This document shows, piece by piece, positions 9,162 through 38,512 of a stretch of 64,000 nt of DNA. Under the pieces are notes generated by a model. The model searched no databases. It saw only the letters and a program-made list of their open reading frames with translations, and was not told where the DNA came from. The position numbers and the translations under genes are program-made. The DNA is taken from positions 62,001-126,000 of the forward strand of contig JADFLR010000008.1 in the NCBI GenBank assembly GCA_022564295.1, written 5' to 3'. The stretch comes from Bacteroidota bacterium (GTDB lineage Bacteria > Bacteroidota > Ignavibacteria > Ignavibacteriales > Ignavibacteriaceae). The number at the start of each line of letters is the position of its first letter. Within the stretch, counting starts at the first letter, position 1.

Positions 9162-9167
9162 CATTTC

Positions 9168-9260: not shown

Positions 9261-9264
9261 ATTA

Positions 9265-9421: not shown

Positions 9422-9868
9422 ATGGAAACCATTCGTCAGATAATTAGCAAAAAGGGAAATCAAATATTTTCTGTTACACCGGAAACGACAGTTTACGATA
9501 CACTAAAGCTTATGGCTGATAAGAATATAGGTGCTGTGTTGGTTCTTGATGAGGGAAAATTGGTCGGAATAATGAGTGAGAGAGATTACGCACGTTAAGT
9601 TGTATTGAAAGGAAAATTTTCAAAAGAAATTCCGGTAAAAGAAATTATGTCTCACAATGTTATCTGCATTGATCCGGACCAAACAATTAATAATACAAAA
9701 GCGGTTATGATACAAAAACGTATAAGGCATTTGCCTGTTATGGAAAATGATAAATTGCTTGGAATTGTTTCCATTGGTGATGTTGTTAATGCGGTGCTTG
9801 AAGAAAACACTTTTATGATTGATCAGCTTGCTACTTATATAAAAGGAATACCGGAAACAGGAGATTAA
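9422..9868 (+). pseudogene. tandem CBS-domain protein interrupted by one in-frame TAA
   Basis: The start is ATG 9422 with a strong ribosome site AAGGAGA (9411-9417). Codons 1-58 encode the first CBS domain, ending GIMSERDYAR; codon 59 (9596-9598) is TAA; the same frame then continues VVLKGKF and a second intact CBS domain (VKEIMS..., HLPVMENDKLLGIVSIGDVV) to the stop at 9866-9868. Family members usually read RDYARK at the junction, so a single AAA or AAG to TAA change explains the break. CBS pairs bind adenine nucleotides and regulate partners. As written, only half-domains could be made, the second perhaps restarting at the TTG at 9605. A sequencing error or strain polymorphism is possible. 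Confidence 0.75.
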
Positions 9869-9925
9869 ATCCCGGCATTCTTGTTTTAATCAATATTTAG
9901 CAAATGTGAAGTTGAATAGAATTTA

Positions 9926-11455
9926 TTATTTCTTTTTTATCACCATTCTGTCATATAGTAATATCAGCATTGCGCTAAGAAATGCGATTGCCCCAAAAAT
10001 AAACCACATTATATCCGGGCGTTGCATATCTCTAGCAAAAGCAGCGTAAAGTTGCCCGGAAAGAATACCTCCGAATAAATTTCCGAGAGCAACACACCAA
10101 TAAAAATAACCCATGTAAAGTGCAACCTTTCCCGGCGGTGCAATTTTTCCGGTATATTCTTTTGATTTTGGACTTGCCATCATTTCGCCGAATGAAAAGA
10201 CAATTATTCCAACTATTACAACCCAACCAAGAGTACCGAAAATTAATATTGAAAAGCTAACGACCGTTATCATCACACCCCAAAAAATTGTTGTGAAGGG
10301 TTTTAACCTTGTAACTAAGTAGGAAACAATAAGCTGGAAAAATATTATTGCTCCGGCATTTATGTTTATTATGTATTCAGGATTTATTTGCCCGGCAACT
10401 GCCATGGAATTTTTAAATCCTTCAATTGATGACCCGAGACCAATCGTGCTCATGAATCCCGTAAAGGAGTTCATTAAATCGGTGGTATCTACAAAGTCTC
10501 TTATATAAAGGGGAAGAGTATAAAATATTTGATTAAAGCTCGTCCAAAAACCGGACATAAGTAAAAGGAATAATCCAAAACGCCAGTCACCAAGTTTCAT
10601 AGGAGAAAGGAACCATGATCCGTTTTCTTTTGCACCGGTTTTTCTCAGAATCACATCGAATAAAAAATTAATTACAACCCATAAAAGTGAAATTAAAGTA
10701 ATATCTCCCCACGTAAACGAACCATCTGAAGTAAACTTTGAACCCATTACAAGAATAATCAACAAACCAAAAACAAACAGAAAAAATCTTCCGTTGCCAA
10801 GTACCTCAACCATATCCGTCAGCACTTTTTTAAGGGATCTTACATCCTTAGTATCACCTGAAATTTCTGGCTCTTTATAAAAGATACTTACAATAATGAG
10901 GTTAACTGCAATCCATCCTGCAGAAGCATAGAATACATATTCCCAGGATATTGCACGGACAATCCCGGCTACAATTGGTCCTATGAATCCTCCAATGTTA
11001 ACCATCATATAAAATATACCGAATCCCATTGATGCAGTTTTATCATTTGTAGTTTTCGAAACCGTTCCTATAATAACGGGTTTAAACATGGCTGCACCCA
11101 GGGCAACAAGCATAAATGCTAAAAAGAATGTGGGAAATGTTTTTAACTGACCAAGCAGATAGTAAGCAGGTATCAGTACAATAAAAGCGGTAATCAGCAT
11201 CTTTTTAAATCCGTATCGATCTGCAAGAGCACCTGTTACAACCGGAAAAAGATACAGGAAAAAAGTAACCACTCCTTGTAATACGCCTCTGTCTTCATCT
11301 GTAAAACCCAAACCGCCTTCACCAATTGCCCCGGTTATATAAAGTGATGAAACAGCAAAAAAACCATACCATGCCATTCGTTCAAATATTTCTAATGTGT
11401 TTGCGACCCAAAATGTACTTGGAAATTCTTTGAGACGGATTTTACTGGAAGACAT
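9926..11455 (-). CDS. MFS transporter, POT (peptide) type-like
   Basis: An inner-membrane carrier of 509 residues with about twelve to fourteen hydrophobic helices. The N-terminal half has the MFS loop motif GALADRYGFKKM after helix 2 and a POT-like segment (FYMMVNIGGFIGPIVAG) in helix 5. The N-terminal EIFERMAWYGFF resembles the ExxERFxYYG signature of proton-dependent oligopeptide carriers, which import di- and tripeptides. The ATG follows AGAGG on the minus strand. It is divergent from purC across a 213-base gap that should hold both promoters. Transport of another small solute cannot be excluded. Confidence 0.75.
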   Translation of the reverse strand: MSSSKIRLKEFPSTFWVANTLEIFERMAWYGFFAVSSLYITGAIGEGGLGFTDEDRGVLQGVVTFFLYLFPVVTGALADRYGFKKMLITAFIVLIPAYYLLGQLKTFPTFFLAFMLVALGAAMFKPVIIGTVSKTTNDKTASMGFGIFYMMVNIGGFIGPIVAGIVRAISWEYVFYASAGWIAVNLIIVSIFYKEPEISGDTKDVRSLKKVLTDMVEVLGNGRFFLFVFGLLIILVMGSKFTSDGSFTWGDITLISLLWVVINFLFDVILRKTGAKENGSWFLSPMKLGDWRFGLFLLLMSGFWTSFNQIFYTLPLYIRDFVDTTDLMNSFTGFMSTIGLGSSIEGFKNSMAVAGQINPEYIININAGAIIFFQLIVSYLVTRLKPFTTIFWGVMITVVSFSILIFGTLGWVVIVGIIVFSFGEMMASPKSKEYTGKIAPPGKVALYMGYFYWCVALGNLFGGILSGQLYAAFARDMQRPDIMWFIFGAIAFLSAMLILLYDRMVIKKK

Positions 11456-11668
11456 AAGGACCTCTAATTAATTCAGAATTGTTTTAGATGAGATATTTCA
11501 CAAAAAGATTACCATAAATGTGAGAGTAAAGTAATCATCCTGAAATATCAAAGCAAACCTTATAATGATCTTTGCAAAAGTTGAATAATCAAACCTGTGT
11601 AACTATATTTCGCAGCACTAATTAATCATAACTGTGCAGTTAATTTATTATCACCCAAAAGGGAAAAG

Positions 11669-12565
11669 ATGGGAACAAAAGTTATACTTGATACAAATTT
11701 TTACAAGCTAAAACTTTTTGCAAAAGGGAAGGTAAGGGATATTTACGAAGTTGGAGATAATCTTTTGTTAGTTTCAACCGATCGCATTTCTGCTTTTGAT
11801 GTGATAATGGGACAGGGTATTCCGTACAAAGGAATGGTACTCACAAAAATTTCAGAGTTTTGGTTCAATTATACAAAAGATGTAATTCCAAATCATTTTA
11901 TAACAACAAATGTTGATGAATATCCCAGTGAGTGTAAAGATTATGTGGATGATCTTAGAGGAAGATCAATGCTTGTTAAAAAAGCTAAGGTTGTACCGAT
12001 TGAATGCATTGTAAGAGGTTATATTACCGGTTCAGGTTGGAAAGATTATATGGCTACAGGTGAAATTTCAGGAATTAAACTCGCCGGAGGATTACAGGAA
12101 TCTGAAAAATTTCCTAATCCAATCTTTACTCCTTCCACCAAAGCTGAAATTGGTGAGCACGATGAAAATATTTCGGCAGAGCAGGCAATGAAGATTACAG
12201 ACGAAAACACTTTTAAAATACTTGAAGAAAAAACATTAAAGATTTATAAAAAAGCTTCAGAGTTTGCACTTGAAAAAGGAATTATTGTTGCCGATACTAA
12301 AATGGAATTTGGTTTCTATAACAACGATATTATTTTGGTAGATGAACTTCTTACTCCTGATTCTTCGCGCTTTTGGTCGGTAGATAAATATGAAAAAGGA
12401 AGAGGGCAGGAAAGCTATGATAAACAGTTTGTCCGTGATTACCTTTTATCGATCAACTTTAATAAACAGCCGCCTCCGCCTGAATTACCTGATGAAATAA
12501 TTAAAAAAACGAGTGAAAAATATTTAGATATTTATGAAAAATTAACCGGTGAAAAGATAGAATAA
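11669..12565 (+). CDS. purC: phosphoribosylaminoimidazole-succinocarboxamide synthase
   Basis: SAICAR synthetase joins CAIR to aspartate using ATP in purine synthesis. At 298 residues it is of the longer PurC type. Visible signatures are GKVRDIYEVGDNLLLVSTDRI near the N-terminus (nucleotide loop and STDR), the VECIVRGYITGSGWK-type block (here PIECIVRG), and the DTKMEFG and DELLTPDSSRFW metal/substrate region. An AAGGGA ribosome site precedes the ATG. It heads a run of eight co-directional genes; the next gene starts directly after its stop codon. Confidence 0.96.
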   Translation: MGTKVILDTNFYKLKLFAKGKVRDIYEVGDNLLLVSTDRISAFDVIMGQGIPYKGMVLTKISEFWFNYTKDVIPNHFITTNVDEYPSECKDYVDDLRGRSMLVKKAKVVPIECIVRGYITGSGWKDYMATGEISGIKLAGGLQESEKFPNPIFTPSTKAEIGEHDENISAEQAMKITDENTFKILEEKTLKIYKKASEFALEKGIIVADTKMEFGFYNNDIILVDELLTPDSSRFWSVDKYEKGRGQESYDKQFVRDYLLSINFNKQPPPPELPDEIIKKTSEKYLDIYEKLTGEKIE

Positions 12566-12871
12566 ATGCATCCCGAAAAGATTAAAATATTAGAAAACAA
12601 ATATTTGTGGATTAAATGGAGTGATGACACGGAATCAAAAATAAATCTTCAAAAGATGAGGGAATTATGTCCGTGTGCTACATGTCTTGCCAAAAGAGAT
12701 AATCAAAGCAAGAGCTATATCCCATCATTAATAAGCAATCAAATTACTGTCTCCGGTATTGAAGCCGTGGGAAGTTATGCAATTCAAATAATCTGGCAGG
12801 ATGGACACAATACTGGAATTTACGAGTATCCTTTTTTGAAGAATCTTGCAGCAGATTCAATTCAAACTTAA
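12566..12871 (+). CDS. DUF971 (GBBH-like N-terminal domain) protein
   Basis: A 101-residue protein consisting of one DUF971 domain, the fold also found at the N-terminus of gamma-butyrobetaine hydroxylases. The motif LRELCPCATC-like segment (RELCPCATCLAK) is present, with the two cysteines that could bind a metal, followed by the W-x-DGHNTGIYEYPFL tail typical of the family. The ATG abuts the purC stop, so the two are translated together. Members are often linked to iron-sulfur assembly genes, but the role here is unknown. Confidence 0.85.
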   Translation: MHPEKIKILENKYLWIKWSDDTESKINLQKMRELCPCATCLAKRDNQSKSYIPSLISNQITVSGIEAVGSYAIQIIWQDGHNTGIYEYPFLKNLAADSIQT

Positions 12872-12876
12872 ACCAA

Positions 12877-13464
12877 ATGATTTTGCCAAACCAGTTAACA
12901 ATTTTACGGATCGTTCTTACTCCAGTCTTCCTTTATTTTTTCATTTCGCCTCATTTGCTTATGAAACAAATATCGCTTGCTATTTTTTTTGTTGCAGCTC
13001 TATCAGATTGGTATGATGGATGGCTTGCACGTAAGTTCAACTACATAACCGAATGGGGAAAATTTATGGATCCGTTAGCTGATAAGATTTTAACATCTGC
13101 GGCATTTATCGGATTTGTTTTGGTAGGATTGCTTGAATGGTGGATGGTAGCAGTTATTTTAATTAGAGATTTTACAATTACATTTCTTCGAATTTATACG
13201 AACAGAAAAGGCTTCATGTTTACAACAAGTAATTACGCTAAGTGGAAAACTTTTTTGCAAATGTTTTTCCTCTATTATTTATTAATACTTTATATCGGTA
13301 GTGTAACTCCTGAACTGAACTTACAGTTTAGTAGAGTATTTCAAGCTCTTTTGAATCCGGATCTACTCTATTTTATCTTATTGTTGATTACCATCATCAC
13401 AGTTCATTCCGGTTTATATTATATAAATAAGAATAAGGAAGTTATAAGAAAAATCTTTTCATGA
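12877..13464 (+). CDS. pgsA: CDP-diacylglycerol--glycerol-3-phosphate 3-phosphatidyltransferase
   Basis: A 195-residue integral membrane enzyme that makes phosphatidylglycerol phosphate from CDP-diacylglycerol. The CDP-alcohol phosphotransferase motif DGx2ARx8Gx3Dx3D is complete: DGWLAR, then G of EWGKFMD and PLAD. Four or more membrane helices are seen. It lies 5 bases after the DUF971 gene and overlaps the next gene, pgpA, which performs the following step. Confidence 0.95.
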   Translation: MILPNQLTILRIVLTPVFLYFFISPHLLMKQISLAIFFVAALSDWYDGWLARKFNYITEWGKFMDPLADKILTSAAFIGFVLVGLLEWWMVAVILIRDFTITFLRIYTNRKGFMFTTSNYAKWKTFLQMFFLYYLLILYIGSVTPELNLQFSRVFQALLNPDLLYFILLLITIITVHSGLYYINKNKEVIRKIFS

Positions 13465-25044: not shown

Positions 25045-25509
25045 TTATGACTTATCCATCATTTTTCTCTGTTTCATCTTTTTCATTTTATTTCCCATAC
25101 GACCCTGCGTTTCATCAAAAGTCTTTCTTTGCTCTTCAGTCAATAAGTCATAAACATCCATTCTGTGGTTAGCTTTTGCGAATGCTATTTTTTCTTTAGC
25201 ATCGTTAATCGTTTTAACTTTGCCCAGGTAATCATCTCTAGTGTAATTCCCCTTGCTTAATAGTTCTTGCATATCAAGCTTATCCTTTTCGACAGCAGCT
25301 TTAAGATCTATCATTTCTCTTTTATGGCTGAAACTAAGTTCTTCAACTGCCTCTTTTTGTGTGTCAGATAAGTTTAAATTTTCAATCATCATTTTGTGAT
25401 GATCATCCCGATGCATTCCACGTCTTTCCATTTGACCATAGCTAAATTGTGTGGAAATTAATACAATAAAAAGAATTACCGCGATTCCGGCTAAATTAAG
25501 TTTTTTCAA
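25045..25509 (-). CDS. periplasmic Spy/CpxP-like (LTXXQ) protein
   Basis: A 154-residue exported protein with a signal peptide ending near FSYGQ. The mature part is helical, rich in Met, Lys, His and Asp, with paired LTxxQ-type motifs (LNLSDTQKEAVEEL and LLTEEQRKTFDE). Spy and CpxP proteins of this fold are periplasmic chaperones or metal/stress sensors. TTG start with AAAGGAG upstream. It is divergent from an ECF sigma operon that encodes a second protein of similar type, and a perfect dyad lies between them, so it is a likely target of that sigma factor. Confidence 0.85.
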   Translation of the reverse strand: MKKLNLAGIAVILFIVLISTQFSYGQMERRGMHRDDHHKMMIENLNLSDTQKEAVEELSFSHKREMIDLKAAVEKDKLDMQELLSKGNYTRDDYLGKVKTINDAKEKIAFAKANHRMDVYDLLTEEQRKTFDETQGRMGNKMKKMKQRKMMDKS

Positions 25510-25569
25510 TTTTTTTCTCCTTTGTTTTTTTTAATGAATTATGACCTTTAGACAGTCCTGCTTTTTCAA

Positions 25570-25593
25570 AGGTTTAAAAGTATATTTAAACCT
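25570..25593. promoter_or_regulatory. perfect 9-bp dyad in divergent promoter region
   Basis: AGGTTTAAA (25570-25578) and TTTAAACCT (25585-25593) are exact inverted repeats six bases apart. They lie between the start of the Spy-like gene and the start of the sigma gene, where an operator or paired ECF promoters would be expected. Confidence 0.5.
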
Positions 25594-25622
25594 AAAATGA
25601 ATTTTTATTGTCCAATTGATGC

Positions 25623-26186
25623 ATGTTCGAATATCGAATGACTGAAATTAAAAATGATCAGAAACTTGTTAAAGAATTTATTTCCGGTAATGAAAGCGCC
25701 TTTAATCGTTTGGCTAAACGTTACCAGGAAAAAATCTATTGGCATGCAAGACGGATGACAGGCAATCATCTTGATGCCGATGATATTGTTCAGCAGGTTT
25801 TATTAGTAATGTACAAAAAATTGAAAACATTTAATTTTGATTCATCCATATACACATGGATTTATAAAATTACATCAACAAGAAGTTTAAACCTAATAAA
25901 ACGAAACAAGCTAAGATCTTTTATCTCAATTGATAATATCATTGAAACCAGGGTTACAGCAAAAGAAGATATAATTTCAGATTTAGAGACTAAAGAAAGA
26001 TTGGAAAAAGTTGAAAGATTATTGCAGAGAATTTCACCGAAACAAAGAGAGGTTTTTATCTTCAGAAAATTTGATGAACTTTCTTACGAAGAGATTTCGG
26101 GGATAACCGGGAAAAGCATTGGTGCTCTCAAGGCAAATTATTTTCATGCCTTCAATAAATTAAAGGAGCTGATAAAAAATGAATAA
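25623..26186 (+). CDS. ECF-type RNA polymerase sigma factor
   Basis: A 187-residue sigma-70 family protein of the extracytoplasmic-function group. Region 2 runs about 12-85 with the DADDIVQQVLL core-binding segment and WIYKITSTRSLNLIKR; region 4 at about 130-185 has SPKQREVFIFRKFDELSYEEISGITGKS as helix-turn-helix. The start may be ATG 25623 or 25638; neither has a clear ribosome site. It overlaps the next gene by eight bases. Controlled by the downstream anti-sigma factor, it most likely senses envelope or metal stress. Confidence 0.92.
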   Translation: MFEYRMTEIKNDQKLVKEFISGNESAFNRLAKRYQEKIYWHARRMTGNHLDADDIVQQVLLVMYKKLKTFNFDSSIYTWIYKITSTRSLNLIKRNKLRSFISIDNIIETRVTAKEDIISDLETKERLEKVERLLQRISPKQREVFIFRKFDELSYEEISGITGKSIGALKANYFHAFNKLKELIKNE

Positions 26187-26808
26187 ATATGATGAATTAA
26201 TTATAAAATATTTTGATGAGCAGCTATCTGTTGATGAAAGAAAAGAATTCGAACACGAATTGGAAATCAATGCAGAATTGAAAGATGCTTTTAAGAACTA
26301 CAAAAAAGTGAATGAAAGGTTCTCAACTAAAGATTTTCTGCTTACTAACCAGGATTATTTTAACGAAATTGTTTCGCGATTCAGACAGAAGTTAGATAAA
26401 GAATCTTACGTTTCCCCAGTTAGGAAAATCGGTTTTACCTTTGCAGCAATTCTGCTGATTATTTCATCGTACTTACTATTTCAGAATTATTTCTTTAATC
26501 AAGGCGTAACAAATTATTCAATTGAGTCTATTACCGATAATTTATCGGAAAAAGAGATGAATGAATTAGCAGATTATATTTCAGATGATTTTTGGAATCC
26601 TATTTCCGGTGGAGAAAAACTTCCGATATTGGAAGAAACTGATTTAAGTTTGGAAGGAGTGATTGCAAATGTATCAATTGAAGAAGGTGTGAAGATTTTA
26701 TCCGATTACCAGATAAATGATTTATATTCACTTGCTAATGAAGATGAATTAGAAATAGCTTACAACGAAATTTTACAAAAAGGATTTATTAAAGAGGTAA
26801 TTAAATGA
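26179..26808 (+). CDS. membrane anti-sigma factor (putative)
   Basis: A 209-residue protein with a cytoplasmic N-terminal part of about 80 residues, one membrane helix at about 83-104, and a 105-residue periplasmic part. The N-terminus MNKYDELIIKYFDEQLSVDERKEFE resembles the short helical sigma-binding domain of Bacteroidota anti-sigma factors. It overlaps the sigma gene by 8 bases and the next gene by 4. The class is inferred from layout and topology; sequence alone would not name it. Confidence 0.75.
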   Translation: MNKYDELIIKYFDEQLSVDERKEFEHELEINAELKDAFKNYKKVNERFSTKDFLLTNQDYFNEIVSRFRQKLDKESYVSPVRKIGFTFAAILLIISSYLLFQNYFFNQGVTNYSIESITDNLSEKEMNELADYISDDFWNPISGGEKLPILEETDLSLEGVIANVSIEEGVKILSDYQINDLYSLANEDELEIAYNEILQKGFIKEVIK

Positions 26809-27281
26809 AATTTTTATTTTTAGGGGTATGTCTTATTCTAGTTTCTTCAATCGAATCCTTTTCGCAGATGCATGATAAACCGCCGCAACATATGCGCGAT
26901 AAACTGATTCAATTGGAAAACATAAAAATAATTGAAGTGCTTGATATGGATGAAGAAACAACGCTCAGATTTTTTTCAAGGCGGAACGAACTACATACGA
27001 AAGCAGATAATTTAACCAAACGCTCGGATGAAATTATTGCTCAGATGGAACTAATTTTTAAAGCTGGAAAAGTTTATACTGAAAAAGAATTAAAATCTCT
27101 GATTGTGGAAGCTAATAATATTCACACAGAAATTGTGAAAACAAAATCAGAGTTCATCAATTCATTAGATGATATTTTAACGACAGAACAAATTGCAAAG
27201 CTTATAATTTTTGAACGCCGATTTAGGGATGAGCTAAAACGAGCCATGTTTAAGGGGAGAAAATATAGAAATCGGAATTAA
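26805..27281 (+). CDS. periplasmic helical protein, Spy/CnrX-like sensor (putative)
   Basis: A 158-residue exported protein with a signal peptide ending near ESFSQ. The mature part is a long four-helix pattern with MHDKPPQHMRDKLIQLENIKIIEVLDM at the start and LDDILTTEQIAKLIIFERRF near the end, the same plan as Spy/CpxP and the metal sensor CnrX. It is the third gene of a sigma/anti-sigma unit with a 4-base overlap, as in the cnrYXH systems, where such a protein releases the anti-sigma factor on metal binding. Function is inferred. Confidence 0.7.
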   Translation: MKFLFLGVCLILVSSIESFSQMHDKPPQHMRDKLIQLENIKIIEVLDMDEETTLRFFSRRNELHTKADNLTKRSDEIIAQMELIFKAGKVYTEKELKSLIVEANNIHTEIVKTKSEFINSLDDILTTEQIAKLIIFERRFRDELKRAMFKGRKYRNRN

Positions 27282-27329
27282 TTTTAAGCAATTAATGCAT
27301 TTAAAAACTAATAATACTTAAAATAAGTA

Positions 27330-27358
27330 TTGATTTTAAAGTACTGCTTGAATATTTT
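27330..27358 (+). promoter_or_regulatory. putative sigma-70-type promoter of tRNA-Leu
   Basis: TTGATT (27330-27335), a 17-base spacer, TATTTT (27353-27358), 16 bases before the mature tRNA. It matches the box pair and spacing upstream of tRNA-Gln. Confidence 0.5.
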
Positions 27359-27374
27359 TACCATCTGTAATTTT

Positions 27375-27459
27375 GCGGAAGTGGTGGAATTTGGTAGACA
27401 CGCTATCTTGAGGGGGTAGTGCCTTAATTGGTGTACGGGTTCAAGTCCCGTCTTCCGCA
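27375..27459 (+). tRNA. tRNA-Leu (GAG)
   Basis: A class II tRNA with long variable arm. Acceptor GCGGAAG/CTTCCGC, anticodon stem CTATC/GGTAG around TTGAGGG giving GAG, T-arm ACGGG/CCCGT with loop TTCAAGT, discriminator A. CCA is not encoded. Confidence 0.96.
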
Positions 27460-27496
27460 CATCTCAAATTTCATAAATAGAAAAAGGATGATACTT

Positions 27497-28258
27497 ATGA
27501 AAAAAATCGTAATGCTGATGTTGGGTGTGTTTTTGTATTTATTCATTAGCACTGGATATCCTCAGGATATGAGTCCTGAGGCAGGAAAGTTATACAATGC
27601 CGGAAATAAACTTCTTAAAGAAGGTAATTATAACGGCGCCATTGAAAATTATAATAACGCTCTTGCAATTGAAAAAGATTACAGAATGTTCTATCAGAGA
27701 GGTGTAGCACAGAAAAAAACCAGGAATTTAGAAGATGCAAAAATCTCTTTTGAAGAGTGTCTTAATTTGAATAAAGACTTTTACGGTGGTTACAATGCTC
27801 TCGGTGGTGTTTATTTTCAGATGGGAGATTATACTGAAGCAATTAATAATTTTGAAAAAGTTTTAAAGCTAACTGATAAAGCAAAAACCCAGAAAAAAGT
27901 TAAGAAGAATCTTTCGTTAGCTTATGCAAAGTTAGGAAATCAGGCGTTAACAAACGGTAATGCCACTAAAGGTATTGATTACCTATCCAAAGCTGTAGAA
28001 TATAATAATTATGATGCTGCTTATCTTTCACTTGCTAAGATTTATTCAGAAATAGGTGAGTGGGATAAATCAATTACTGCTTCCTTTGATGCATTACAAT
28101 ATCGTTCGAAGATTAGCAAAGGCGGTCCATATTTTTATATGGGAGTTTCATACAAAGGGAAAGGCGAAAACGATAAAGCAAAAGAAATGTTCAATAAAGC
28201 AAAAGGCGATGCAACTTATAAAAAGACGGCAGAGTATGAACTGAGTCTCTTAAATTAA
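27497..28258 (+). CDS. exported TPR-repeat protein
   Basis: A 253-residue protein with signal peptide (ending near TGYPQ) and about six tetratricopeptide repeats, for example AGNKLLKEGNYNGAIENYNNAL, YNALGGVYFQMGDYTEAINNFEK and YFYMGVSYKGKGENDKAKEMF. ATG 27497 has AAAAAGG nine bases upstream and gives the signal peptide; upstream in-frame starts would run into the tRNA-Leu gene. It is a periplasmic scaffold of unknown partners. A strong terminator follows. Confidence 0.88.
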   Translation: MKKIVMLMLGVFLYLFISTGYPQDMSPEAGKLYNAGNKLLKEGNYNGAIENYNNALAIEKDYRMFYQRGVAQKKTRNLEDAKISFEECLNLNKDFYGGYNALGGVYFQMGDYTEAINNFEKVLKLTDKAKTQKKVKKNLSLAYAKLGNQALTNGNATKGIDYLSKAVEYNNYDAAYLSLAKIYSEIGEWDKSITASFDALQYRSKISKGGPYFYMGVSYKGKGENDKAKEMFNKAKGDATYKKTAEYELSLLN

Positions 28259-30090: not shown

Positions 30091-33081
30091 TTGAAATTTA
30101 TACACAAAATAACCGGGAAAACAATTTACTTATCTGTGCTATTCTTAATTTCTCCAGCATTGTCTCAAAGCATTTCAGAAAAATTCACATTAGCGTTGGA
30201 AGAATATTATCAGGCAAGATATGCCGATGCTTATGTTTTATTTAATGATGTTGCAGATGATTATGGTATTAATGATGAACTTTACGCTTCATCAAAATAT
30301 TATGCTGCCGATGCTTTACTTAAGTTGGGTCAAAAAGAACTAGCCGCAGCAGAATTAGAATACATTGTTAATCATATTATCTGGTCAAATTTCAGGGAGG
30401 AAGCATTTTATCACCTTGGATTGATTTATTATGAATTTGAAAAATACTCAGTTGCCAGGGCAAGGTTTGAATCTTTGTTAAATGAATATCGTGGTGGAAA
30501 ATATTCCGGTTCGGCAATGTACTGGATTGGAGAATCTTACTCAGAAGAAAATAAACTCGATGAAGCGATTGAATTTCTTCATAGAGCGATTAAAGATAAG
30601 CAAAGCAACAGTTATAGAGATTATACAATTTACACCCTTGCAACTGTGTATGAGAAAAAAGGTGATTACGAAAATGCGGTTAAATATTACGATCAACTGC
30701 TTTCTTATTATCGCAACAGTTCTTTACTAGTATCTGCGCAAATAAGAATTGGTGTATGCTATTTTTATTTGAAGGATTACCAATCTTCTATACTTGAATT
30801 GAATAATCCTCTTTTGGATGATCTTCCCGACAACTTTTATTCTGAAAGTCTTTATTTACTTGCAAACTCGTATTACAGAGTGCAGGAATATAACGAAGCA
30901 GAAAAAGTTTATTCGGAATTGATGGAAAAATTCCCGGGCACTGATTTTATTCGTGATGCAAAATATGGTTTAGCGTGGTCGTTATTTCAGCAAAATAAAT
31001 ACAACGATGCTTTTAGAGTTTTCGATCATCTATCAGCTGGTGCGGATAGCATTGCCGTTGAATCATACTACTGGAAAGGCGAAGCAAAAAGGTATTCGGG
31101 TAAAAACAAGGAAGCAATAAAAATTTACCGCAATCTGCTATCTGAACATTCATCAAGTTTTATTGTTCCCAGGGTTGAATATCAGCTCGGGTTACTTTAT
31201 TTCAGTTCAAAAGATATTAATTCATCTAAGCGATACCTACTTACCGCTGCATCATCAAAAGAAGCTGATGTACGAGCGCGTGCATATACTCTTTTAGGTG
31301 AACTTGAATTAGATAGTAAAAAATATGCCTCTGCTAAGAATTATTTTGAGCAGGGATTGAATATTAGCGCAGAAAATTCAGATGTACAGCTTCGTTCGAT
31401 GTTGGGATTAGGTGCGGCACTTTATTATATGGAAAAAAATGATGATGCAATGGAATATCTGAATAAGATTTTAGCTGCTTCACCCGATTTTGAGAGAGAC
31501 AGGGTAAACTACTACCTTGCGGAAAACTATTTTGCTATGCAGAAGTATAACCAGGCACTCGAACGCTTTAAAGGGATTAACACGCAGGAAGAAGACATAA
31601 AAAGATTAACCCTATACGGCACAGCTTACTGTTATTTTAATTTGGGAGATTATGAAAACGCTGCATTCCGTTTTGCTGAATACGTAAAGATTTATCCGTA
31701 TGATGAACGTGTTACGGATGCAAAGTTAAGACTTGCCGACAGCTATTTTGGAAGTAAAAATTATACAGCGTCTTACAAGGTTTATAAAGATTTGTTCATC
31801 TCTCAAAAGTTATCGCTTGATGATCCGTATGTATATTATCAATATGCACAAGCACTCTATAAATCGGGTAAAACCGAATCTGCCGTTAAAGAGTTTTCCA
31901 ATCTTCAAAAGAAGTTCCCGAATTCAAGTTATGCTGATGTTTCTCTTTATACAATTGGCTGGATACATTTTCAACAGGGAGATTTTAAAACTGCCATTGA
32001 TAAATACAGAAGAGTAATGCGTGTATATACAAAAACATCTTTAGCGCCTGTTATTTATTATTCAATCGGAGATGCGTTTTTCAATATGGGCAGTTACGAT
32101 TCAGCAATTGTTAATTATCGAAAAGTTCTTACAAATTATCCTTCTTCCGATTATGTGTTTGATGCAGTTAACGGAATACAATATAGTTATGTTGCAAAAG
32201 GTAAGCCCGAAAAAGCCATTGCATTGATTGACGGATTTGTTAACGAAAATCCATCTTTAAAATTTTCCGATCAGATATATTTTAAGAAGGCGGAAATTTA
32301 TTACAGCAATCGTGAGTATGAATCGGCTAAAGAAAGTTACAAAGATTTTATTGAGAAATTCAGTAACAGCAAATTTATACCCGAAGCATATTTCTGGTTA
32401 GGTAAAAGTGCCGATAATCTTGAACAGTACGAAGAAGCAATAATTTATTTTAACACTGCATTCCAAAAATATTCGAAGTCGGAGATTGCCGCATCATCGG
32501 TTCTTGAAATGGGTTCAATCTATAATTCTTTAGAAAACTATGGAGCTGCAATTTCAATTTATAATCAGGCAATCGAAAAAATTAAAGGTTCGCCAGGCAT
32601 TCCTGAAATATTGTATATGAAGGGATTAACTTACATCAATGCGGATAGTTTACAGCAAGCATACGAAGTGTTTTCTGATGTTTCGTACTATTACCGTGAG
32701 ACAATATTTGCAGATAAATCAAAATTTGAATCAGGATTGATCGATCTTGCTGCCGGCAGGTATGAAAATTCGGATAATAACTTTCTTGAACTCGCGGAGA
32801 AGCGAAACGATGAACTTGGTGCGAAGGGACAATATCATTACGGTTTATCATTATACGAACAGAGTAAATATACAGATGCAATATCTGCACTAGTGAGAGT
32901 TCGCACGGTTTTTTCTATGTATGATGAATGGCTGACTAAATCTTATATGGCGCTCGGAGATTGTTATGTTAAACTTGATGATAATAGAAAAGCTAAGGAG
33001 ATGTATCGTATAGTGATAAGCAAACATAAAAACGATTCTTATGGAAAGGAAGCAAGAAAAAAAGTAAGGGAATTAAAATGA
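30091..33081 (+). CDS. large periplasmic TPR-repeat protein
   Basis: A 996-residue protein with a TTG start, signal peptide ending SPALSQ, and some two dozen TPR-like units through its whole length (for example AFYHLGLIYYEFEKYSVARARFE, AYFWLGKSADNLEQYEEAIIYFN, YMALGDCYVKLDDNRKAKEMYR). The style (paired helices with FPNSSYA-type linkers) resembles YbgF/CpoB and BamD TPR domains that act in the periplasm beside Tol-Pal or outer-membrane assembly. It leads a co-directional set with a barrel, an HU-SPOR protein and ExbB/ExbD/TonB, so a scaffold role in that envelope machine is likely. No ribosome site is seen before the TTG, and no other start exists nearby. Confidence 0.85.
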   Translation: MKFIHKITGKTIYLSVLFLISPALSQSISEKFTLALEEYYQARYADAYVLFNDVADDYGINDELYASSKYYAADALLKLGQKELAAAELEYIVNHIIWSNFREEAFYHLGLIYYEFEKYSVARARFESLLNEYRGGKYSGSAMYWIGESYSEENKLDEAIEFLHRAIKDKQSNSYRDYTIYTLATVYEKKGDYENAVKYYDQLLSYYRNSSLLVSAQIRIGVCYFYLKDYQSSILELNNPLLDDLPDNFYSESLYLLANSYYRVQEYNEAEKVYSELMEKFPGTDFIRDAKYGLAWSLFQQNKYNDAFRVFDHLSAGADSIAVESYYWKGEAKRYSGKNKEAIKIYRNLLSEHSSSFIVPRVEYQLGLLYFSSKDINSSKRYLLTAASSKEADVRARAYTLLGELELDSKKYASAKNYFEQGLNISAENSDVQLRSMLGLGAALYYMEKNDDAMEYLNKILAASPDFERDRVNYYLAENYFAMQKYNQALERFKGINTQEEDIKRLTLYGTAYCYFNLGDYENAAFRFAEYVKIYPYDERVTDAKLRLADSYFGSKNYTASYKVYKDLFISQKLSLDDPYVYYQYAQALYKSGKTESAVKEFSNLQKKFPNSSYADVSLYTIGWIHFQQGDFKTAIDKYRRVMRVYTKTSLAPVIYYSIGDAFFNMGSYDSAIVNYRKVLTNYPSSDYVFDAVNGIQYSYVAKGKPEKAIALIDGFVNENPSLKFSDQIYFKKAEIYYSNREYESAKESYKDFIEKFSNSKFIPEAYFWLGKSADNLEQYEEAIIYFNTAFQKYSKSEIAASSVLEMGSIYNSLENYGAAISIYNQAIEKIKGSPGIPEILYMKGLTYINADSLQQAYEVFSDVSYYYRETIFADKSKFESGLIDLAAGRYENSDNNFLELAEKRNDELGAKGQYHYGLSLYEQSKYTDAISALVRVRTVFSMYDEWLTKSYMALGDCYVKLDDNRKAKEMYRIVISKHKNDSYGKEARKKVRELK

Positions 33082-33160
33082 AACGAGCAAGAAAAACCAT
33101 TTACAAACACTTCCGAGGGAATACCTTCGGCAAAAGAAATGATTATAATGCGAGTTCTAT

Positions 33161-34783
33161 ATGACCTTAATTAGAAATTATATACATATAAAAAAAATCT
33201 TATTGCTAATATTATTCCCCGCAGTTTTAATTTTCTCACAGGATGATAAAACAAAAAATCCAAATGTAGAGCTTCCTGATTTTGTTATAACGGGAGAGGA
33301 TGTAATATCAATTAAAAGAGCAGATAAGATAAAACCGGATTTCATTTCAACTGTTACTGAAAGATTTGTAAAACCTGTTCATTCACCTGAGGAACTTGGT
33401 TTAAGGCAGCTATCCGATCCTATAAAAGAAGACCTTGCACTTCTTGATTCAACAGCATTTTCAAACGGCGGTTTAAGTGCCGGCGCGGGAATTTATATTT
33501 TACCCGATGCAAATTTTAATTATACTTATCCATTTCATAATGGAATCCTTAAAGCCGACCTTGGTGGAATGTATCAGCGAGATTATATCGAAAACAGCGA
33601 CAGATATTCTTTCTATGGCGGAGCCGGAATTGAGTATTCGCTTGGTGTAATTGATAAATCATTACCGGGCACACGTTTTTTGCTTGGCGGTGATTATAAA
33701 TCATTAGCGTATAAATTATTTGCGTCAGACGATCCTTCACAAAAGCGAACAAAAAATGAAGGTAATTATTATCTGGGAATTAAAAGTACCGCAGGTAAAG
33801 TTTTTATTTTCGATCTTCAATTTGATGATTATGTTACATCACTTGTTGAAGATAATTTTAATGAAAATCTTATCAATCTAAATGGCTTCGTACGTCTTCA
33901 GCTTTCAGATATCGGATTAGGAATAAAAACAAATTATCAAAAACAATTTTTTACCACTGATTCAATAAACAATGCCGGTTTAAATTATTTCTTTTTCAGA
34001 CCAACTGTTTCGTTCGAGTTATTCAATTCTGTTAAGGCAGAAGTTGGATATACTTTTACAAATTCCGGTGGTCAAAATTTCAATAAAATTTTTGCTTCAT
34101 TTGGTTTAAGAATATCAAAAAACATGATACTCCTGGGTGAGTTTTCACCTAATGCTGAGTTTGTAACTTCAGGATTGCTATTACGGAAAAATGATTATTT
34201 CAATCCAATAATGTTTGATAATCTCTTCTATAGAAAATCAAATTACTTTGATGTGGCAGTTAAATATGAATATGAAAGATATTATCAGATAGATGCTGGT
34301 TTGCGATACTTCAAATCGGGTAATCTTCCTTACTTTATTGAATCAAACAACTCCGGGCAGTTTGATATTGCAACGACAGATGCGGAAAATTACAACGCTT
34401 ATCTAAATATGTCTTTTCATTTTGGTCCTTATGGTGTTCTATATAGCAGCTTCGATTATTTTAGAGTTAGAGATAACAACGGTAATAAAATTCCGTATCA
34501 ACCAAATCTTAAGGGAAATATAACTTACGGTTATGAATTTAAAAGAGGGATGCTCGGCGAAGTTTTGGTTGATTATTATTCCGATAGATTTACCGATATA
34601 CCAAACACAACTATGTTAAATTCGTTTTTTAATTTAGGTTTTAAACTAACATATAAACTTCAGGAAACGTTTATTCTAAAACTTGAAATGTGTAACCTGT
34701 TAAACCGGGATATCTTTTTATGGCAAGGGTATATGGAAAAGCCGTTCGATGTTATGCTAGGGTTCAATTTGTTGTTCGATTGA
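33161..34783 (+). CDS. outer-membrane beta-barrel protein, TonB-dependent receptor-like
   Basis: A 540-residue exported protein. After a signal peptide ending LIFSQ comes an N-terminal segment NPNVELPDFVITGEDVISI, similar to the box near the N-terminus of TonB-dependent receptors, then about 400 residues of alternating strands with aromatic girdles and a C-terminal aromatic end (VMLGFNLLFD). There is no full plug domain, so it is not a standard receptor. The TonB gene lies in the same operon. Confidence 0.75.
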   Translation: MTLIRNYIHIKKILLLILFPAVLIFSQDDKTKNPNVELPDFVITGEDVISIKRADKIKPDFISTVTERFVKPVHSPEELGLRQLSDPIKEDLALLDSTAFSNGGLSAGAGIYILPDANFNYTYPFHNGILKADLGGMYQRDYIENSDRYSFYGGAGIEYSLGVIDKSLPGTRFLLGGDYKSLAYKLFASDDPSQKRTKNEGNYYLGIKSTAGKVFIFDLQFDDYVTSLVEDNFNENLINLNGFVRLQLSDIGLGIKTNYQKQFFTTDSINNAGLNYFFFRPTVSFELFNSVKAEVGYTFTNSGGQNFNKIFASFGLRISKNMILLGEFSPNAEFVTSGLLLRKNDYFNPIMFDNLFYRKSNYFDVAVKYEYERYYQIDAGLRYFKSGNLPYFIESNNSGQFDIATTDAENYNAYLNMSFHFGPYGVLYSSFDYFRVRDNNGNKIPYQPNLKGNITYGYEFKRGMLGEVLVDYYSDRFTDIPNTTMLNSFFNLGFKLTYKLQETFILKLEMCNLLNRDIFLWQGYMEKPFDVMLGFNLLFD

Positions 34784-34863
34784 TAATAATCACTTTTTTT
34801 AATTAGTTTTGTAAGTGGTTGATTTTTAAGTAGATACAGATTACTGAATTATATCTTTGAAAG

Positions 34864-36720
34864 ATGAAGAAAGCTGAATTAGTAAAAATAATTTCGAAAA
34901 AAGCAGCGATTTCCGAATCGTCGTCTAAAGAATTATTCGATTTGTTCTTGCGGAAAATTGCAGATGAATTACACGCGGGGGAATCTGCACAGTTCAGCAA
35001 TGTTGGATATTTTCATCTGAGAAAAGGTAAAATTAAAAAAGATAGCAAAGCCGCTAATGGTTCGAAGATTGAATATCTTGACCTGATAATCTTTACCTCT
35101 TCCATGCAGTTCAATATTAAATCCCCTGATAATCTGGTGTTCAGTGTTCCCGAACCGGAAGATACAGATCTAAATAACCTTGATGAACACTTTAGTCTTA
35201 GTGCAGATAAACCTGTGCTGCCAGATTTAGATAGTAAAAACACTTTCGCCGCAGATTTACATGAAGTTGATGTAGATAAAATATTAAATCGCAAAGTAGA
35301 AAGTTTGATGGTAAATCTTCAGAAGGAAGAAAGAATTCAAGCAGACAGCGAATTTTTGCTTGTAGATATGAAAATTATTGATGAAGACCAATTTGAACTT
35401 GAATTAGATGAAGAATCAAAAAGAAAGAATTCGGAGAAGATATCTGATAGCACTATCCATAGTTCCGAAAAATTAAAAAGTCGGGCATGGGATTTTGGTA
35501 AAGATCTTACAAAGCAGATAAAGGAAGAATCAATTTCTGAAGTAGATAAAGATAAAAAAGTAACAAAAGTTAAAGATGAAATTACAGGTTGGGATTTTGG
35601 TAAAAGATTTTGGGGTACTCCTCCTCCTTTAGCTATAAAAAGTAAAATAGAATTAGATAAAACTGAACTGAAAGAAACTTCCGTTAAGAAAAAAGTTTTT
35701 GATGATAAGAAGTTAAAGGATAAAAAAGAACCTGCCGATAAAATTATTAAGAAAAGAGAAATTGAGAATCTTGAAATTGAAATGGATGACTTTCAGGTAT
35801 CCCATAAGGAAGAAAAAATTGGGAAGTTTGAAAGAGTTCGTTCTATTACATCTTCTCTTAACGTGGAAGCTTCATTGGAGGAAGTTAGAGGTTTTGAAGA
35901 ATTTCTGGATGATAATATTAATACAGAAGACGAAGAGATTGATTATGATAACGAATTTAAAAAGATTACAAGCAAAGCCGAACAATTCCGTTCAGAAGAA
36001 ACAAAAAAGTCGTTAGAAAAAACTGCTGTTATTGAAGAGAAAAAAAGTTATATCCAAAAGGATATTAAACTTAACAGGGTAGAGGCGGTAAGAAAACACA
36101 GAAGAGAATCAAAAAAAATTTCTGCAAAAAAATTTCTTACTGTTACGGGTATATTTATAATAGTAGCAGGTGTATTTTTTTTACTGATGAAGAACAGAAG
36201 CACAACGGAAATTATTGAAGAAACATTACCTCCTATTGAAAGGATTGAGAATGCTACCTACATAGAAAGATCCTATGATCTACCAGTTACTTATCCTTAT
36301 TTAAAACCAGAAACGGATATGGGGGTAATCGGTTTTAGCTCAACAGATTATAAGGATGTAAAACCTGAAAAAATAATTGGGGATAAATTACCTCCCAAAA
36401 AAGTATTGGAAACCAAACTTCCAATTAAAAAAGAAGTAGCTGTAGAAAAACCGAAAGTCAGTTTCCCGGTTAAAAAACCTTCGGGAACTCCTGTACAGTC
36501 GGCTTACAATATTTACAAATATGAAGACATATACATTGTGCAGGTTGCTGCGTTTCGAAAGGAAAACTCTGCTGAAAAGGAAGCGGCAAAGCATATTGCC
36601 AAAGGTTATAATGCTTTCCTTGAAGAAGCAATAATAGATGGAGTTACCTGGCACAGGGTTAGAATTGGTAATTTTGAGACTTTGGAAAAAGCAAAACAAT
36701 TTAGAAAATCAAATAATTAA
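34864..36720 (+). CDS. HU-domain / transmembrane / SPOR-domain fusion protein
   Basis: A 618-residue protein in four parts. Residues 1-95 form an HU/IHF-like domain (KKAELVKIISKKAAISESS, NVGYFHLRKG). Residues 100-420 are charged and poorly ordered, with a WDFGK motif twice (209-213, 243-247). A membrane helix lies at 424-443. The C-terminal SPOR domain (about 556-616, YIVQVAAFRKENSAEKEA ... WHRVRIGNF) binds denuded glycan strands at division sites. So a DNA-binding-type domain faces the cytoplasm and a peptidoglycan-binding domain the periplasm. Comparable HU-CCDC81-SPOR proteins are known from Bacteroidota and were predicted to tie nucleoid to envelope. It precedes ExbB/ExbD/TonB by 12 bases, suggesting joint action. 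Confidence 0.88.
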   Translation: MKKAELVKIISKKAAISESSSKELFDLFLRKIADELHAGESAQFSNVGYFHLRKGKIKKDSKAANGSKIEYLDLIIFTSSMQFNIKSPDNLVFSVPEPEDTDLNNLDEHFSLSADKPVLPDLDSKNTFAADLHEVDVDKILNRKVESLMVNLQKEERIQADSEFLLVDMKIIDEDQFELELDEESKRKNSEKISDSTIHSSEKLKSRAWDFGKDLTKQIKEESISEVDKDKKVTKVKDEITGWDFGKRFWGTPPPLAIKSKIELDKTELKETSVKKKVFDDKKLKDKKEPADKIIKKREIENLEIEMDDFQVSHKEEKIGKFERVRSITSSLNVEASLEEVRGFEEFLDDNINTEDEEIDYDNEFKKITSKAEQFRSEETKKSLEKTAVIEEKKSYIQKDIKLNRVEAVRKHRRESKKISAKKFLTVTGIFIIVAGVFFLLMKNRSTTEIIEETLPPIERIENATYIERSYDLPVTYPYLKPETDMGVIGFSSTDYKDVKPEKIIGDKLPPKKVLETKLPIKKEVAVEKPKVSFPVKKPSGTPVQSAYNIYKYEDIYIVQVAAFRKENSAEKEAAKHIAKGYNAFLEEAIIDGVTWHRVRIGNFETLEKAKQFRKSNN

Positions 36721-36732
36721 CAGGAAATAAAG

Positions 36733-37389
36733 ATGAATTTTTTTGAAATATTTTTAAAAGGCGGCGTTGTAATGTGGTTGATATTAGCTAGTTCTGTTAT
36801 AGGACTAAGCGTAGTTTTCGACCGATTTTTATTTTTAAGAAAATCAAAAATAAATGTTCCAGCTTTTATGGTAAGGTTACGCGGTTTAATTAAAAAGAAA
36901 GATATAAGCGGTGCGGTTTCGGTTTGCATGGAGGAAAAATCTCCTATTGCAAATATCGTAAGAAAAGGTTTGAAGAAATATAAGTACGGACACGACCGGG
37001 TAAAAGAGGCAATTGAAAATGCAGGCACCCAGGAAATAAACAAACTGGAAAAGGGGTTATCAATATTGGCAACTGTTGCAGGTATAGCTCCTCTTTTAGG
37101 ATTCCTCGGAACTGTAACCGGTATGATAACTGCATTTATGACTATTGAAGACCTTGCAGGTTCTGCAAACCCAAGTGACCTTGCAGGAGGAATTTGGGAA
37201 GCGTTAATTACTACTGCATTTGGTTTAATTGTCGGCATCTTTGCTTTGGCATTTTACAATTACTTTCTCAGTTCAGTTAAAAGACTTGTCGGCGATATGG
37301 AAACAGTTGCAAATGATGTCGTTGATACGATACAGGATATATCGGAAAATAAAGATATAGCAGAAGACGAACTTGAATTAGAAATTTAG
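36733..37389 (+). CDS. MotA/TolQ/ExbB proton channel family protein
   Basis: A 218-residue inner-membrane protein with three helices: one near 13-33, then a large cytoplasmic loop, then two near 108-135 and 155-180. The TolQ/ExbB block GLSILATVAGIAPLLGFLGTVTGMI and the following AGGIWEALITTAFGLIVGI are complete. With the next gene it forms the proton-driven motor that energises TonB- or Tol-type periplasmic work. AGGA ribosome site. Confidence 0.95.
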   Translation: MNFFEIFLKGGVVMWLILASSVIGLSVVFDRFLFLRKSKINVPAFMVRLRGLIKKKDISGAVSVCMEEKSPIANIVRKGLKKYKYGHDRVKEAIENAGTQEINKLEKGLSILATVAGIAPLLGFLGTVTGMITAFMTIEDLAGSANPSDLAGGIWEALITTAFGLIVGIFALAFYNYFLSSVKRLVGDMETVANDVVDTIQDISENKDIAEDELELEI

Positions 37390-37400
37390 GAAGGATAGAA

Positions 37401-37802
37401 ATGAAATTTGAAATTTCAAATAAACCATTGGCAGTTTTTAGTTACTCATCTTTAACAGATATTGTTTTATTATTGGTTATTTTCTTTTTGTTAACGAGTC
37501 AGTTTGTTATTCATACAGGAGTAAAAGTAAAACTGCCGGGTTCGCGAACAAATGATCAAGCTGAACCAACCCAGCTTGTTGTTACTATCACTTCGGAAAA
37601 TGCAGTCTATATTGGATCTGAGCAAATAGGAATAGACCAGCTTGCTTTGAAAATAAATGAGAGCTTACAAATAAACGATCAAAATAATCTTGTGATTCGT
37701 GCCGATAAAACTGTTCAAATTGATATAGTAATAAAAGTCATAGATGCTGCAAAATCTGTTGGCATCGGTAAGTTTACAATTGAAACTGAAAAAGAACAAT
37801 AA
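37401..37802 (+). CDS. ExbD/TolR family biopolymer transport protein
   Basis: A 133-residue protein with one N-terminal membrane helix (about 19-40) carrying the essential proton-path Asp20 (SSLTDIVLLLVIF) and a periplasmic C-terminal domain (VVTITSENAVYIGSEQIG ... VVIRADKTVQIDIVIKVID-like). It partners the ExbB/TolQ protein encoded just upstream; 11-base gap with AAGGAT. Confidence 0.95.
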   Translation: MKFEISNKPLAVFSYSSLTDIVLLLVIFFLLTSQFVIHTGVKVKLPGSRTNDQAEPTQLVVTITSENAVYIGSEQIGIDQLALKINESLQINDQNNLVIRADKTVQIDIVIKVIDAAKSVGIGKFTIETEKEQ

Positions 37803-37813
37803 GAGGATTTGCT

Positions 37814-38512
37814 ATGTCCGATAAGAAAATTTCAAGTGCTTCGTTTACGGTTTCAGTCCTGTTTCATGCTGTTTTGCTGTCATTGTTTATGTTACTTAAT
37901 CTTTCATTTGATTATGAACCTTCGGAATATATAGAACTTTCTTTTGGTGTATCGAGTGAAACCGGGTCATCCGGTTCTCAAGGCAGCCAGATTGACATGG
38001 TAGAAGAAGTATCTAAACCGGAGGTTGAAAACCTAACCGAAGATAAAAGCAAAGAAGTGAAAGAAGTTGATTTACCCCTTGCCGTAAATACCTCTGAAGA
38101 AAATGTAATTAAACCTGCCGAAAAAGATAAAGAAGTATCCGAGGAAAGCAGCACGGAGAATAATGATCCTGATCTTTCAAGTGTTACATCAACAGGACAA
38201 GGTAATTTGGCTGAAGGTGATGGAAGTTTTGGCTTTGATATTGAATGGGGTGGTAAAGGAATTAGAAAGATATATAGTTTCACTCTTCCAAAATATCCAG
38301 AGGGTGTAAAAAAAGAAATTGATATTAAACTTCAGTTTACAATTTTACCAGATGGTACAATCGGGACAATCTTTCCTAAGATTAAAGCCGATACAAGACT
38401 TGAAAATGCTGCGATAAATTCTTTACGGCAATGGAGATTTGAAGCTTTAGACCCATCGCAAAAACAAATAGAACAGACGGCTGTTATCGTGTTTCCTTAC
38501 CGTCTTCAGTAA
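37814..38512 (+). CDS. TonB family energy transducer
   Basis: A 232-residue protein with an N-terminal anchor helix (about 10-31), an acidic Glu/Ser/Val-rich spacer (instead of the usual proline-rich one), and a C-terminal TonB domain at about 150-232 (EIDIKLQFTILPDGTIGTI, AINSLRQWRFEAL). It carries energy from ExbB/ExbD to outer-membrane partners, probably the barrel of this operon. The spacer composition and setting leave open a TolA-like role. Its last 29 bases overlap the end of a convergent gene. Confidence 0.88.
   Translation: MSDKKISSASFTVSVLFHAVLLSLFMLLNLSFDYEPSEYIELSFGVSSETGSSGSQGSQIDMVEEVSKPEVENLTEDKSKEVKEVDLPLAVNTSEENVIKPAEKDKEVSEESSTENNDPDLSSVTSTGQGNLAEGDGSFGFDIEWGGKGIRKIYSFTLPKYPEGVKKEIDIKLQFTILPDGTIGTIFPKIKADTRLENAAINSLRQWRFEALDPSQKQIEQTAVIVFPYRLQ

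Follow-up and report, generated by a model that had tools for sequence, protein, structure and literature searches.

A 64,000-nucleotide stretch from the genome of a Bacteroidota bacterium (class Ignavibacteria, family Ignavibacteriaceae; contig JADFLR010000008.1 of assembly GCA_022564295.1, 4.07 Mb in 59 contigs), hereafter the window, contains six open reading frames that follow one another on one strand between positions 30091 and 38512. They encode a large tetratricopeptide repeat (TPR) protein, an outer-membrane barrel, a protein joining an HU-like domain to a SPOR domain, two motor subunits and a TonB-like protein (Table 1), and are separated by gaps of 79, 80, 12, 11 and 11 bases. The order and coordinates given for these genes in an initial annotation of the DNA were borne out. 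Domain matches and predicted folds likewise agree with its description of a set that spans the envelope and includes a proton motor, a SPOR protein, a TPR protein and an outer-membrane barrel. Judged by sequence or structural model, the set comprises a TonB-like protein of the inner membrane, a plugless outer-membrane barrel with a box-like tail, a SPOR protein with a single transmembrane helix, a large TPR protein and an optional motor. It is tentatively proposed here that the operon forms a tether across the envelope that can be motor-driven, perhaps in place of the Tol-Pal system.

Table 1. Genes and motifs of the operon, with positions in the window
Feature	Position	Strand	Remarks
Large TPR protein, 996 aa	30091..33081	+	12 TPR_6 stretches (Pfam)
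Outer-membrane barrel, 540 aa	33161..34783	+	Predicted 22-strand TonB-receptor fold, plugless
TonB-box-like motif VELPDFVITG	33266..33295	+	In the flexible N-terminal barrel tail; most conserved barrel window
HU-TM-SPOR protein, 618 aa	34864..36720	+	HU-like 34864-35073; transmembrane helix (TM) ~36133-36192; SPOR 36532-36708
ExbB/TolQ family motor subunit	36733..37389	+	MotA_ExbB PF01618, E 1.6e-36
ExbD/TolR family motor subunit	37401..37802	+	PF02472, E 2.2e-27
TonB-like force transducer	37814..38512	+	S14/H18 motif 37853-37867; TonB C-terminal domain ~38255-38509

Proteins of the operon and conservation of the gene set

The TPR protein has a signal-peptide-like N-terminus, contains no cysteine among residues 1–40 and is taken to be periplasmic. 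It passes the tol_pal_ybgF model TIGR02795 (281.8 bits over nine stretches), as a long TPR protein can, and stays below the cut-offs of the CpoB model NF008068 (81.1 bits, cut-off 383) and of the PorW/SprE model NF052312 of the type IX secretion system (112.7 bits, cut-off 250). The HU-SPOR protein matches Bac_DNA_binding (PF00216) over residues 1–70 (E 1.3e-8, 35.4 bits, cut-off 22.4) and SPOR (PF05036) over residues 557–615 (E 6.1e-15, 55.8 bits, cut-off 21), and its transmembrane helix was assigned by inspection. The motor subunits fall below the cut-offs of the tolQ, exbB, tolR and ExbD models, the ExbB protein reaching 110.1 bits with tolQ (cut-off 221) and 67.4 with exbB (cut-off 206.2), the ExbD protein 56.4 with tolR (cut-off 127.3) and 53.3 with ExbD.

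The genes are not scattered in relatives, a point on which the initial annotation had made its reading depend. Conservation was followed in overlapping sets of loci, in which some genomes occur in duplicate (a single 15,554-base record underlies both L120 and L141) and for which duplicate-free counts were made. Among 80 loci of named genomes gathered by the barrel motif, 56 have more than 5.5 kb downstream; 46 of these show the exact order TPR-barrel-HU+SPOR-ExbB-ExbD-TonB, and one further locus has HU and SPOR split. Relatives include Ignavibacterium sp., Melioribacter roseus, Stygiobacter electus (isolate 09-Me, with the full operon at L207) and bacterium BMS3Abin03. The class set consists of 73 loci found by barrel similarity (to a single protein or a profile) and picked to span families rather than at random; 64 have room on both sides, nine with little room having been dropped, as were loci under 5 kb. 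Genes for a TPR protein (62), SPOR (58), the TonB-like protein (57), ExbB and ExbD together (28) and HU (22) lie beside the barrel in these 64 loci. Parts of the set are likewise present in 20 loci belonging to other families within the phylum, with counts of 15 for TPR, 14 for ExbB and ExbD, 12 for the TonB-like protein, 10 for SPOR and five for HU. The locus sets draw on families in which the barrel is well matched, which excludes f7, f14 and others.

No partner of the barrel is more constant than the TPR protein, and the six genes of the window represent one form of a broader set in which HU and ExbB/ExbD are optional. With 28 class loci against 57 for the TonB-like gene, the motor is therefore not the constant part. 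Furthermore, nine of the ten commonest flanking gene families have no copy in the 20 other-family loci, and the tenth, a small TPR protein, occurs in two of them, which indicates that the gene block outlasts its surroundings.

The barrel itself was matched in 60 of 119 class genomes in one search. At E ≤ 1e-3, matches occur in 348 of 391 class genomes and 353 of 395 phylum genomes, figures that overstate the spread: in 14 genomes rechecked, most weak matches are C-terminal and lie in frames of about 570–890 aa, including that of G288 from the window's own family, and these are probably ordinary TonB receptors. Among the matches listed, those better than 1e-15 cover about 316 of the 391 class genomes.

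The barrel tail, its TonB-like partner and the motor

No Pfam family matches the barrel at E ≤ 0.1. Its AlphaFold2 model, built from 69 sequences, has a mean predicted local distance difference test score (pLDDT) of 84.3 and a predicted template-modelling score of 0.76, with 382 residues at 90 or above; residues 26–98 form a low-confidence tail, nearly all below 50. The 22 strands were counted by hand from the DSSP line, residues 322–328 and 331–336 being taken as one, and the best matches in the PDB were BtuB (E 1.3e-15) and, by another measure, FhuA and BtuB (Z 22.7). At E ≤ 0.1 the Plug domain (PF07715) was detected neither in the window barrel nor in ten relatives; one relative, the boxless L057, passes the TonB-receptor barrel model. 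According to the predicted structure, the barrel is a TonB-receptor fold without a plug.

The flexible tail carries the strongest conservation. Across 74 aligned barrels, VELPDFVITG reaches 3.00 bits as a 10-column window, compared with 2.34 for the next and a mean of 1.41. In a genome collection of 257 billion bases, the pattern [VI]ELP[DE]F[VI]IT occurs in 110 stretches, and in 104 of them a relative of the barrel is encoded. The motif is read as a TonB box because of its place, its pattern, both of which we take to resemble those of TonB boxes, and its loss together with the TonB-like gene. In the linker of the TonB-like protein, a conserved VELPKAKNTD echoes the barrel-tail motif, and perhaps one partner binds both.

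The assignment of the last protein to TonB is weak by sequence and holds by predicted fold. Its Pfam TonB_C match (E 2.5e-4, 21.9 bits) lies under the cut-off of 24.6, and the C-terminal model, of good confidence, aligns with TonB in 6i97_D (Z 10.1, root-mean-square deviation 2.2, 85 residues aligned) and 6fip (E 9.7e-5). The best TolA comparison gives Z 6.3; the two folds are related, the window domain being nearer to TonB. A profile of the protein matches 85 of 119 class genomes at E ≤ 1e-10.

Box and TonB-like gene mostly occur together. Among the 73 class loci, 65 have both, four have neither, four have the box without a local gene, and none has the gene without the box, so that every class locus with the TonB-like gene (65/65) carries the box. 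The four boxless loci belong to two genera; two of their genomes (G009, G621) have no TonB-like match at E ≤ 0.01 and the other two (G023, G102) only partial ones (best 2.0e-7 and 2.5e-6). Two of the box-only genomes (G420, G432) carry the TonB-like gene elsewhere (4.5e-62 and 4.2e-64). At L168 neither a TonB-like nor an Exb gene lies nearby, the best match in the genome has E 0.002, and the last glycine of the box is replaced by serine (ELPDFVITS); its sister L165 has kept both gene and box.

A second motif concerns the motor. The transmembrane helix of the TonB-like protein carries S-x3-H (S14 and H18 in the window), which is invariant in 49 aligned sequences; in E. coli TonB the spacing is S16/H20. 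A motor-contact role is given for the histidine of the TonB-family helix in one study (PMC12204202). Of 86 loci with a local ExbB gene, 83 have the motif, against 12 of 42 loci without one (76/79 versus 12/42 free of duplicates). The TPR tree shows three changes of [ST]-x3-H, all of them in lineages that have no ExbB in the locus; 10 of the 12 loci that keep S-x3-H without ExbB are on this tree and fall in clades with ExbB-bearing loci. Within family f4, the ExbB-bearing L229–L231 keep the motif and L051 and L228, which have no ExbB, do not; in family f9 the histidine is kept and the serine is not. The two patterns, box with gene and motif with ExbB, are those that binding of the C-terminal domain to the box, and of the transmembrane helix to the motor, would be predicted to leave. 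For lineages that have neither local motor genes nor S-x3-H, a passive tether is suggested.

A tether across the envelope and its competitors

The binding of the TonB-like protein to the barrel tail is the most secure part of the interpretation and is considered probable. In the proposed mechanism, a TonB-like rod from the inner membrane would pass the wall and grip the barrel tail by strand addition, as TonB does with its receptors, and the barrel would serve as a handle on the outer membrane. Because there is no plug, pulling could not gate the barrel in the usual way, and the grip may instead keep the membrane in place or pull it along. As is established for FtsN and DamX, SPOR domains recognise denuded septal glycan; the SPOR protein would thus set the assembly on denuded peptidoglycan and direct it to the septum. 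The TPR protein may act as a periplasmic scaffold, capping the otherwise open barrel from below, and ExbB/ExbD, where present, would pull the link. The likeliest use would be that the outer membrane is held or drawn in at division, as by Tol-Pal elsewhere. That the set works as a tether or force link, rather than in substrate transport, is put at a little below an even call; a septal, Tol-Pal-like role is possible but less expected, and the Tol-Pal-like division machine suggested in the initial annotation is carried forward as a hypothesis. More broadly, the operon could represent a third branch of TonB/TolA-type force transduction across Bacteroidota, with a plugless barrel as outer-membrane handle, a dedicated TonB-like grip through the box, SPOR on the septal wall, and both motorised (ExbBD, S-x3-H) and passive forms that substitute for a missing Tol-Pal; as a whole, this wider picture is rather unlikely.

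A separate Tol-Pal operon, which would have offered another account of the motor, was not seen in the source genome. TolB_N (PF04052) has no match there at E ≤ 1e-3 and matches two of 119 class genomes weakly (best 5.0e-4). In the phylum sample it occurs in 24 of 395 genomes, 13 of them in one genus, g100. Those 13 have no barrel match better than 1e-7; g100 is not counted as a test of TolB against barrel, because it is one lineage and its TolB-less genomes also have weak barrel matches. Nine OmpA-domain (PF00691) matches were found in the source genome, none in the operon and none a short Pal-like lipoprotein by its reading frame; they include two MotB-like proteins beside MotA/ExbB-family genes, as well as larger OmpA proteins.

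Compared with Tol-Pal (TolQRA-TolB-Pal-CpoB), the window operon likewise places genes for an ExbB/TolQ- and ExbD/TolR-type motor together with those for a TonB/TolA-type transducer, for a TPR protein and for a part that binds peptidoglycan, and its ExbB scores best with the TolQ model, under the cut-off. It differs in having no TolB or Pal, in an outer-membrane partner that is itself an integral barrel and carries a TonB-box-like tail, in a transducer domain nearer to TonB than to TolA, in the added SPOR protein and in the optional motor. With the Ton system and its transporters (BtuB, FhuA, Oar) it shares the 22-strand fold, the box-like tail, the TonB-like C-terminal domain, ExbB/ExbD and S-x3-H; here, however, the barrel is plugless, the operon is a dedicated one with TPR and SPOR proteins, and several lineages of the set have neither an adjoining motor nor the motor-contact motif. 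The septal SPOR proteins FtsN, DamX and DedD have the same single transmembrane helix, cytoplasmic N-terminus and periplasmic C-terminal SPOR domain, but not the optional HU-like cytoplasmic domain or the Ton-type operon. The exporters BcsC, PgaA and AlgK/AlgE also pair a TPR scaffold with an outer-membrane barrel, and sugar genes lie near the operon in part of the class; unlike them, the present set has a TonB-receptor fold, a box-like tail, a TonB-like partner and a SPOR protein. Finally, PorE has been proposed as a tether between outer membrane and peptidoglycan that would make up for the absence of Tol-Pal in Bacteroidetes; it is, however, a lipoprotein fused to an OmpA-type domain, and none of the nine OmpA-domain matches of the source genome looks PorE-like by eye (PMC12204202).

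According to the same source, Bacteroidetes lack identifiable tol-pal loci, further systems besides PorE are expected, and how the outer membrane is constricted and held at division in Bacteroidota without Tol-Pal is an open question; the terms SPOR and Ignavibacteria did not turn up when the paper was searched for them (PMC12204202). The operon is a widely conserved, concrete candidate for that division role, with candidate contacts between the TonB-like domain and the barrel tail, between SPOR and the wall, and between the transmembrane helix and ExbBD. The component families are known; the gene set, the plugless box-bearing barrel and the series of motorised and motorless forms were not found described in the literature searched, which left most subscription papers outside, and are new relative to it. 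If the tether is real, a TonB partner without a plug would separate force on the membrane from gating, and naturally occurring versions, some motorised and some apparently not, would form a series.

Several observations weigh against the tether. In other families, the tail motif differs and is of the type E-I-E-I-V-K-x-R. The box pattern was widened after inspection of the data and matches four of 146 control segments. L224, the one locus seen of family f11, has a poorer box, VEIPELIRVG, and its genome a TonB-like match of just E 8.4e-4; nine listed f11 genomes have no TonB-like match at 1e-10. In G060, an assembly of 540 contigs, the box is present at L027 and the TonB-like gene was not found, and G013 and G081 have a TonB-like match without a barrel match. 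In comparisons on the TPR tree, TonB-like gene and box change in the same direction in two to three of five independent pairs and in opposite directions in none, L233, whose gene runs off the contig, being scored as lacking it. For the motor, [ST]-x3-H is unchanged in five of seven independent pairs that differ in ExbB (two change the same way, none the opposite way). Sign tests on such pairs give p 0.25–0.5, short of significance, and there are not enough independent co-losses for a statistical proof. Outside the class, L103, L104, L106, L107 and L115 have ExbB and no [ST]-x3-H. SPOR was not seen in six of 64 class loci (L055, L220–L222, L224, L227). A TPR-barrel pair without the TonB-like gene is found in L042 and L057, both with a boxless tail, and in L131 and L138, and L114 has just the pair, which argues for a role of these two proteins independent of a tether. 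GTDB places the Chlorobi in the same phylum. They are reported to possess tol-pal (PMC7391070). Lastly, polysaccharide genes lie near the operon in 26 class loci.

That last point bears most on a close rival, a gated outer-membrane channel, perhaps for exopolysaccharide. In it, the barrel would move glycan, protein or lipid, the TPR protein would bind substrate or gate the pore from the periplasm, the TonB-like protein (with ExbBD where present) would open it by pulling the tail, and SPOR would anchor the assembly to the wall. The barrel's TonB-receptor fold suits such a channel, TPR-barrel pairs are typical of polysaccharide exporters (BcsC, PgaA, AlgK/AlgE), and the pair outlasts the other operon genes in several lineages. 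A UDP-glucose/GDP-mannose dehydrogenase gene lies near the operon in 14 class loci of families f8, f15 and f20 (L047, L052, L053, L240, L243–L252), the distance from the end of the TonB-like gene being 200 bases in L047, whose family has no local motor genes, and a sugar-transferase gene does so in 12 others of f4, f11, f13 and f18 (L049–L051, L057, L138, L224, L228–L231, L255, L256). In addition, a TonB receptor can serve secretion, as described for Oar/PopC (PMC6434023). Because such polysaccharide genes are frequent, confidence in the tether was lowered slightly and that in the channel raised. On the other hand, clustering revealed none of these sugar genes next to the operon, either within the window's taxonomic order or in the 20 other-family loci; the barrel is near-universal in the class; and whole families without local ExbB/ExbD and the motor-contact motif keep the box and the TonB-like protein. 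Since motor coupling is lacking in whole families, an energised channel is disfavoured as the shared role. The channel is rated slightly below the tether, and if it is right, the operon would instead represent a new type of TonB-linked exporter.

A general factor of outer-membrane biogenesis, in which the TPR-barrel pair would insert, fold or export envelope components with SPOR and TonB parts as accessories, would fit the persistence of the pair where other parts are lost (L042, L057, L114, L131, L138) and the sigma-70-type regulator and LTXXQ protein upstream, homologs of that block being found in 54–61 loci. The barrel, however, is a TonB-receptor fold and not an Omp85, and the upstream block was not seen in the 20 other-family loci, save the small TPR protein in two, which leaves this explanation improbable.

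The initial annotation had also extended the set to the nucleoid. A segregation machine linking nucleoid to outer membrane, with the HU part holding DNA, draws on the Pfam HU fold and on the separate HU genes of some families. NPxTG is the arm tip of DNA-binding HU. It was found in none of the 94 detected HU-SPOR fusions (0/88 distinct), and HU itself is present in 22 of 64 class loci, so that the nucleoid link did not hold up and such a machine is very unlikely. For the window protein, a nucleoid tether through HU is rejected because the DNA-binding arm is missing. Short standalone HU frames have the arm in three of 12 cases. A separate short HU gene immediately precedes the gene for HU-SPOR or SPOR in L044, L045, L046, L057, L138, L104–L107 and L116, from distant families, and the standalone protein keeps the arm only in L044–L046, three f12 loci. 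A weak form of the nucleoid tether is conceivable in families with such genes. A 2017 Cell Cycle paper from the Aravind group is said to describe HU/IHF clades that include HU-CCDC81 proteins of Bacteroidetes.

Misreading of an ordinary Ton nutrient-uptake or Tol-Pal operon is equally far-fetched: the ExbB, ExbD and TonB families are present, but the barrel has no plug, neither TolB nor Pal was found in the source genome, and the latter carries a separate ExbB-ExbD-ExbD set (contig C41) and further TonB_C proteins (C10, C39, C8, C32).

Neighbouring genes and variant loci

The block upstream of the operon (25045–28258) encodes an LTXXQ protein on the minus strand (25045–25509), a protein with sigma-70 regions 2 and 4 (25623–26186), a small TPR protein, and two proteins without Pfam match (26179–26808 and 26805–27281) that look anti-sigma-like and Spy-like by eye. 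Within the operon, an ATG overlapping the stop codon of the TPR gene opens a frame of 28 codons that ends at the barrel start (33078–33161); in relatives such as L039, the barrel starts right at the end of the TPR gene.

Among variant loci, L220–L222 (families f19 and f26) have the TonB-like gene (in L221 also ExbD) upstream of the TPR gene, or no SPOR, and a box of the form L[DE]IPEITIVG. In L114 (family f37, 7761–13428), TPR and barrel stand alone and divergent from an ATP-binding cassette ATPase gene; among NCBIfam models, FtsE fits this gene best (242.5 bits, cut-off 264.85). Elsewhere in the source genome, on contig C45, one protein (L272, 6859–8562) unites an outer-membrane protein barrel, thrombospondin type 3 repeats, an OmpA domain and a C-terminal SPOR domain.

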